Shown here one piece after another: positions 16,163 to 17,549 of a DNA stretch of 50,931 bases. The position numbers and the translations under genes were made by a program. The notes beneath the pieces are model-generated. The model saw only the letters and a program-made list of their open reading frames with translations. It had not been told where the DNA came from and ran no database searches. Every line of letters begins with the position of its first letter. Position 1 is the stretch's first letter. The stretch spans positions 1 through 50,931 of the forward strand of contig JAMCZI010000032.1 of assembly GCA_023485545.1 (NCBI GenBank), in the 5' to 3' direction. The stretch comes from Candidatus Martarchaeota archaeon. GTDB taxonomy: Archaea > Micrarchaeota > Micrarchaeia > Micrarchaeales > Micrarchaeaceae.

Positions 16163-16984
16163 TTGCACACTGTACAAAAAAGCGGGCAGGCGGTCGTTGG
16201 AAAACTGCGCACCGAGCAGCTTCCAGAGTTTGCCGATGCGCATACGCACCTTGACCTTCTCAAGGACGACGTTCTTCTGAAAGAATCGATTAGCAGAGGG
16301 GTTGGCACGATAATAACATGCGGAGTGGATTACCAAACCAGTATTAAGGCCATGGCACTTTCTGATTATTCGGTAATATTTCCGGAAGTCGGCTTGGATC
16401 CAGAGAACGCATTGCTAAGTGGCAATGACATTGACGCTGTATGTGAGTTGGCGAGGAAAAATTCAGCCAGGATAGTTGGCATAGGTGAAATAGGGCTAGA
16501 TTTCAAGAAAGCCGTATCTGAGGAGGACAGGGAAAAGCAGCGTGAAGCATTCAAGAGCATGATAGAACTCGGCAGGGAGCTTGACAAACCATTAACGGTG
16601 CATTCCCGTAACTCTATGAAGGAGGTGCTTAGGATTCTTGAGAGCTCTGGAGCAAAAAGGGTGCAGCTGCATTATTTCGAGGGAGATAAGGACGATGCTA
16701 GAACGGCTGCGGAGCTTGGCTACTACATATCAGTGCCTCCACTGGAGTCCGGAAGGCGTGCGGCAGCGATAAAAGATTTCCCTCTCGGTCTGCTCATGGC
16801 TGAAACTGACACTCCGGTTGTCGGGAAGGCGCCTTATTATGTAGAGGTATCCGTCCAGATGGTTGCGAATGTAAAGGGCATTGATTATTACAAGGCTGCG
16901 GAGGTACTGACTGCGAACACAAAGCGTTTTTTCAGAATACATGCTGGAGGCATGGCAAGCAGCGAAAGTAATATAAGGGTGTAA
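16163..16984 (+). CDS. TatD family metal-dependent hydrolase
   Basis: TIM-barrel metallohydrolase related to TatD DNases; probable deoxyribonuclease, substrate not certain. It has ADAHTHLDLL (HxH), GIGEIGLDF (metal-bridging Glu), TVHSRNSMKE and LMAETDTPV (final Asp), all in family order. The ORF track starts far upstream. TTG 16163 is preferred, with GGTGA exactly 4 nt before it; ATG 16148 remains possible if the message is leaderless. About 273 aa, slightly long for the family because of an N-terminal extension. Confidence 0.9.
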   Translation: MHTVQKSGQAVVGKLRTEQLPEFADAHTHLDLLKDDVLLKESISRGVGTIITCGVDYQTSIKAMALSDYSVIFPEVGLDPENALLSGNDIDAVCELARKNSARIVGIGEIGLDFKKAVSEEDREKQREAFKSMIELGRELDKPLTVHSRNSMKEVLRILESSGAKRVQLHYFEGDKDDARTAAELGYYISVPPLESGRRAAAIKDFPLGLLMAETDTPVVGKAPYYVEVSVQMVANVKGIDYYKAAEVLTANTKRFFRIHAGGMASSESNIRV

Positions 16985-17019: not shown

Positions 17020-17118
17020 GGGCCCATAGCTCAGCTTGGACAGAGCGGCAGCCTTCTAAGCTGATGGTCGCGGGTTCAAAATGGTCCATACAGGATCATG
17101 AAAATCCCGCTGGGCCCG
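17020..17118 (+). tRNA. tRNA-Arg(TCT) with a T-loop intron
   Basis: GGGCCCA pairs with TGGGCCC, followed by G as discriminator. The D arm is GCTC/GAGC, the anticodon loop CTTCTAA (anticodon TCT), the T stem GCGGG/CCCGC. The T loop should be TTCAAAT, but 24 extra bases lie inside it. The insert folds into a 7-bp hairpin (ATGGTCC/GGATCAT with one G-T pair), and TTC/GAA can pair to leave two 3-nt bulges, a relaxed bulge-helix-bulge. Removing 24 nt gives a normal 75-nt tRNA. Exact cut sites are ambiguous by 2-3 bases because of A runs. Confidence 0.92.
17078..17104 (+). other. Noncanonical tRNA intron (about 24 nt)
   Basis: The intron interrupts the T loop around position 59/60 rather than the common 37/38 site. 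The interval given covers the ambiguous ends; the intron itself is 24 nt within it. It would need the tRNA splicing endonuclease to accept a relaxed motif with a central helix of only 3 bp. Confidence 0.82.
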
Positions 17119-17135
17119 TAATATCGCTTAATCGC

Positions 17136-17549
17136 TTACTGCTGCTGCACCTTGCCCCCGCGCTTCTGCTGGGGTTCCTTGCGCGCTGATGGGAATATGA
17201 TATCCATGTCCTCATCCTGATTGGTCTCCATCCATGTCTTTATGTACACTGAAAGGTTCTTCAGCGGCTTTGAAAACCTGTCCGTCATCGTATACGCGGA
17301 GCCTTCATGCTTTAACAAACCGGCCTGAACTGCAAAATCAAGATATCTTTTTGATGTAGCTATCGGAAATATTGCCTTTGCCTCATTCAGGCGCAGGCTG
17401 CCCCGCTTCTTTACTTCATACAATAGCCTTGCAAATCGGTATGCTTCTGTTTCGTTTTCATAGTAAATCTTCGCTATGTCCCTTATGCTTACGTTTTTCA
17501 GCTTCTCCTTCATTGGAGCATCTTCGAACTCCCAGTATTTCAGGTTCAT
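17136..17549 (-). CDS. Hypothetical winged-helix-like protein
   Basis: 137 aa, soluble. Residues about 20-100 look like a winged-helix unit: helices (SIRDIAKIYYENETEAYRFARLLYE; SKRYLDFAVQAGLLKHEG) followed by a short hairpin (SAYTMTDRFSK). The C-terminus is basic and Gln-rich (KEPQQKRGGKVQQQ). It could be a DNA-binding protein, but no family is recognised. It is convergent with tRNA-Arg and is followed upstream by the DRG gene on the same strand. Confidence 0.78.
   Translation of the reverse strand: MNLKYWEFEDAPMKEKLKNVSIRDIAKIYYENETEAYRFARLLYEVKKRGSLRLNEAKAIFPIATSKRYLDFAVQAGLLKHEGSAYTMTDRFSKPLKNLSVYIKTWMETNQDEDMDIIFPSARKEPQQKRGGKVQQQ

Follow-up and report, generated by a model that had tools for sequence, protein, structure and literature searches.

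The window analysed here, the 50,931 nt of contig JAMCZI010000032.1 from a Candidatus Martarchaeota archaeon, contains a tRNA-Arg(UCU) gene at 17020-17118 (plus strand) that reads as complete, its T loop holding an additional 24 bases. We consider it very probable (about 0.95) that this gene is functional and that the extra bases form an archaeal bulge-helix-bulge (BHB) intron at T-loop position 59/60, which is spliced by the endonuclease EndA and the ligase RtcB. The same insertion site is found across Micrarchaeota, for the most part in one set of four tRNA genes, and this lineage-wide, isoacceptor-restricted pattern is more interesting than the single gene.

The interrupted tRNA-Arg(UCU) gene

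The insert is located between T-loop positions 59 and 60, and when its 24 nt were excised in silico a standard cloverleaf of 75 nt was obtained, which ARAGORN called as tRNA-Arg(tct). With the interrupted gene or the window as input no tRNA was called by ARAGORN, the Rfam tRNA model scored the interrupted gene at 25.2 bits (under its cut-off of 29), and an Rfam scan of the window found no family reaching its cut-off. The gene, its 24-nt T-loop intron and its 75-nt mature form had been described in an earlier note made from the sequence of the window, and ARAGORN, in calling the spliced sequence only, agrees with that description. The site named there as unusual was reproduced as well; 59/60 is among the known noncanonical archaeal tRNA intron positions (Sugahara et al. 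2008 data; reviewed in PMC4090602).

The features of the gene are listed in the table below. The 3' CCA is not encoded. A TatD-family gene (Pfam TatD_DNase, stop at 16984) ends 35 nt upstream of the tRNA gene, and a small ORF in convergent orientation on the minus strand (17136-17549) lies 17 nt downstream. The closest named relatives are the Candidatus Micrarchaeota MAGs TL1-2.bin19 and TL1-5.bin78.

Table. Features of the tRNA-Arg(UCU) gene and its predicted BHB motif (positions in the window)
Feature	Position	Strand	Basis
5' exon, tRNA positions 1-59 (acceptor 5' strand, D arm, anticodon arm, variable loop, T-stem 5' strand, T-loop 54-59)	17020..17080	+	ARAGORN on spliced sequence
Anticodon TCT	17055-17057	+	
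Exon-exon helix of BHB: T stem GCGGG, pairs with CCCGC at 17106-17110	17070..17074	+	
Central helix, 5' strand TTCA (T54 T55 C56 A57)	17075..17078	+	intron comparison in relatives
5' bulge AAA; predicted cut after 17080	17079..17081	+	cut by canonical BHB rule
24-nt intron ATGGTCCATACAGGATCATGAAAA at 59/60	17081..17104	+	same site in relatives
Intron-internal hairpin, 6 bp	17082..17098	+	
Central helix, 3' strand TGAA, intronic	17099..17102	+	intron comparison in relatives
3' bulge AAT; predicted cut after 17104	17103..17105	+	cut by canonical BHB rule
3' exon: T60, T-stem 3' strand CCCGC, acceptor 3' strand, discriminator G73	17105..17118	+	

Splicing motif and splicing enzymes

The elements of the motif are arranged in the order GCGGG / TTCA / AAA / TGGTCC-ATACA-GGATCA / TGAA / AAT / CCCGC, with helices of 5 bp (exon), 4 bp (central) and 6 bp (inner) and two bulges of 3 nt each. 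In a canonical BHB each bulge is cut after its second base. Cutting both bulges by this rule takes out exactly 24 nt and leaves a 7-nt T loop (TTCAAA|T), and only the 4-bp reading with cuts after the second bulge base yields this combination of intron and loop.

A central helix of only 3 bp had been proposed in the earlier note. In that reading the T of TGAA is paired with the first intron base, where the RNAfold minimum-energy structure also puts it, and the reading is refuted by the introns of relatives. Among 79 distinct GCGGG-stem introns from 60 genomes, the T of TGAA is kept in 78 and the first intron base is variable (A 50, T 20, C 5, G 4); in the 25 introns that begin with T or C no pairing with T is possible. 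All four central pairs form in 77/79 introns, and in 0/79 when the 3' strand is slid by 1-3 bases. A57 is present in 79/79 but was demanded by the search pattern, which likewise prescribed a purine as third base in the 3' strand of the central helix and set the first and last bases of the 3' bulge, leaving the T and G of TGNN unconstrained. The inner helix has a mean of 3.6 contiguous pairs from its base, compared to 0.6 in shuffled introns (N=40). The motif is thus a canonical BHB with a 4-bp helix, in which both bulges and both flanking helices are present, as distinct from the relaxed forms (hBH, HBh'). Since it is canonical, the broad-specificity endonuclease that had been deduced from a short helix is not implied by the motif itself.

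One clear EndA is encoded in the genome. Its 361-aa reading matches the ARMAN-2 EndA (structure 4FZ2) over residues 2-361 (E=7e-145); Y210, H225 and K256 align with the catalytic Y236, H251 and K282 of 4FZ2, and K135 aligns with the ASL lysine K161 (residues named in PMC6379350). By this alignment the protein is of the three-unit epsilon2 type (alphaN-alpha-betaC in a single chain), the form to which the earlier note had pointed as known from ARMAN. An RtcB ligase gene (E=5e-167) is also present in the genome.

In the proposed pathway, the T stem GCGGG/CCCGC, the TTCA:TGAA pairing and the intron hairpin of the transcript would fold into the BHB, EndA, presumably as a dimer, would cut after the second base of each bulge, and RtcB would join the exons to give the 75-nt tRNA; the mature tRNA-Arg(UCU) would read AGA and probably AGG. 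Judged from motif and enzyme genes, the 24-nt insert is almost certainly removed by the standard RNA-splicing enzyme, and the intron probably has no function beyond being spliceable.

A match to EndA was obtained in 95 of the 97 genomes sampled from the phylum. In family f6 the enzyme is absent or divergent in all three genomes sampled, and only one doubtful T-loop match was found among ten genomes of the family, a pairing that is suggestive only. The distribution of EndA was considered as an explanation of the T-loop introns and is not sufficient, because the full-length enzyme is also found in genomes with no T-loop match (e.g., G188, G191, G192).

Distribution, origin and functional status

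The same kind of intron is found in the tRNA-Arg(CCU), tRNA-Arg(UCG) and tRNA-Ala(GGC) genes of this genome (loci L064, L024 and L025). Three further loci of the genome were noted in passing. A tRNA-Leu(CAA) gene (L021, G000:C27:42435-42532) has a 13-nt T-loop insert with no canonical BHB and is a candidate for a truly relaxed motif. A tRNA-Trp(CCA)-like gene (L020, G000:C14:11763-11896) has a long anticodon-loop intron with a box C/D-like sequence (GATGATGA ... CTGA), as is known for archaeal tRNA-Trp introns. A weak tRNA-like match of 28.2 bits near a contig end (L023, G000:C32:67017-67090), which has no matching acceptor stem, is possibly a tRNA remnant.

Across the phylum, the pattern GGTTCAAA-N8-38-TGRNANTCC, which is loose and gives some chance matches, was found in 210 of 301 genomes, compared to roughly 17 of 301 (an approximate count) for the reversed-pattern control; some single matches outside the order will be due to chance. 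A T-loop insert in tRNA-Arg(UCU) was matched in 70 genomes; a few of these matches outside the order, and one inside it (G061), appear to be due to chance. The agreement of gene, site and motif in the relatives is not a matter of chance. Of 30 loci with GCGGG-stem introns, 29 were parsed, and these are tRNA-Ala(GGC) (10), tRNA-Arg(UCU) (9), tRNA-Arg(UCG) (7) and tRNA-Arg(CCU) (3). When the stem in the pattern was replaced by CCGGG, 60 genomes yielded a single match, which lacks the motif; intron-free CCGGG T arms are common in these genomes. A GCGGG stem is not sufficient for an intron, since intron-free examples exist. In 15 of 197 genomes the T loop of tRNA-Arg(UCU) is uninterrupted, with the extra bases in the anticodon loop instead. 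Genus g31 is among the groups with an intact T loop and a short anticodon-loop insert in this gene, so that the intron position switches within the order.

In genome G041 the T-loop introns of tRNA-Arg(UCU) and tRNA-Arg(CCU) (L044, L070) are identical and the exons are 96% identical, which is attributable to gene duplication, gene conversion or intron transfer. In genome G119 the T-loop inserts of three separate loci (contigs 1, 6 and 9) are almost identical, which suggests recent spread.

Compatible with the splicing explanation, but unlikely, is that the intron persists because it splits the 3' region of the tRNA gene, where archaeal mobile elements preferentially integrate, or that it was carried in by such an element. 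Models of this kind have been published by Randau and Soll (as cited in PMC3293823) and by Sugahara et al. (PMC3293823), and SSV1 integrates in a tRNA-Arg gene (PMC3293823). The confinement of T-loop introns to a few tRNAs with a GCGGG T stem and the identical introns of two isoacceptors in G041 fit this idea; the Arg/Ala restriction can be due to simple inheritance, and the GCGGG association may be plain isoacceptor ancestry. The T arm with its intron was searched for in viral contigs and gave no match, and intron-bearing tRNA genes also serve as integration sites (PMC8371274). We offer only tentatively, and with more doubt than belief, the proposal that in Micrarchaeota the T loop of a few tRNAs that share a GCGGG T stem, namely tRNA-Arg(UCU, CCU, UCG) and tRNA-Ala(GGC), is a preferred landing site of BHB introns, which would move or be exchanged between genes, possibly via elements integrating at the tRNA 3' end.

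That the insertion knocked out the gene and left a pseudogene, as the failure of standard tRNA finders on the interrupted gene might suggest, is hardly credible. After intron removal three species of the genus share one and the same 75-nt exon sequence, and their introns are 92-96% identical, a difference that argues against decay; in addition, the insert folds into a BHB. The earlier note had proposed that another intact tRNA-Arg(TCT) would mark this copy as a pseudogene, and the assembly, about 78% complete, yielded none; across 28 ORFs of the window, 387 of the 547 Arg codons are AGA or AGG. The G27-A43 mismatch in the anticodon stem is no sign of decay, because it is the commonest state in relatives (34 of 43 Arg(UCU/CCU) genes). 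It is most improbable that the mature tRNA retains the insert as an enlarged T loop, for although the insert has a hairpin of its own, inserts vary freely in length (12-38 nt) and sequence with the splice motif kept, some relatives carry the insert in the anticodon loop, and a large insert in the T loop would disrupt the elbow that this loop forms with the D loop in the established tRNA structure. Splicing of a functional tRNA-Arg(UCU) is therefore the preferred reading.

Comparison with known systems

As a result of the T-loop introns, standard finders can overlook four essential Micrarchaeota tRNAs or give them low scores, which distorts anticodon inventories and marker-based views of genomes; the BHB models of tRNAscan-SE 2.0 were trained on introns of Crenarchaeota/Euryarchaeota and Thaumarchaeota (PMC8450103). 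The 79 introns also constitute a large natural BHB series for the co-evolution of epsilon2 EndA and tRNA introns. No description of the phylum-wide four-tRNA pattern was found in a literature search whose coverage excluded the ARMAN tRNA list of Fujishima 2011. The kind of intron itself is already known, since both the 59/60 site and the intron-rich tRNAs of ARMAN have been published.

The intron resembles the archaeal BHB introns at 59/60 (PMC4090602) in site, 3-4-3 BHB and tRNA host, and its length is inside the 11-129 nt reported for archaeal BHB tRNA introns. It differs from those earlier 59/60 introns in its lineage and in its recurrence at one site, with every sampled GCGGG-stem case (29 parsed) in tRNA-Arg(UCU, CCU, UCG) or tRNA-Ala(GGC). 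The earlier note had held T-loop introns to be reported mainly from Thermoproteales; noncanonical T-arm sites are indeed known there, but the statement is incomplete in view of their frequency across Micrarchaeota. According to Fujishima 2010 (cited in PMC4033280), introns of Thermoproteales tRNAs spread by transposition, and as far as that citation describes them they share with the introns studied here noncanonical sites including the T arm and the occurrence of similar introns in more than one tRNA of a genome; they belong to a different phylum and occupy many sites, unlike the mostly single site and few tRNAs seen here. ARMAN-1 and ARMAN-2 (Micrarchaeum; Fujishima 2011 and Hirata 2012 as cited in PMC4033280 and PMC6379350, and PMC12397907) are of the same phylum, and they are listed as having multiple-intron tRNAs and an epsilon2 EndA (PMC4033280). 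The EndA encoded here aligns with that of ARMAN-2 (4FZ2) along its whole length, the catalytic and ASL residues are conserved, and the motif it would cut is canonical, unlike the relaxed motifs for which the ASL of the ARMAN epsilon2 enzyme is known.
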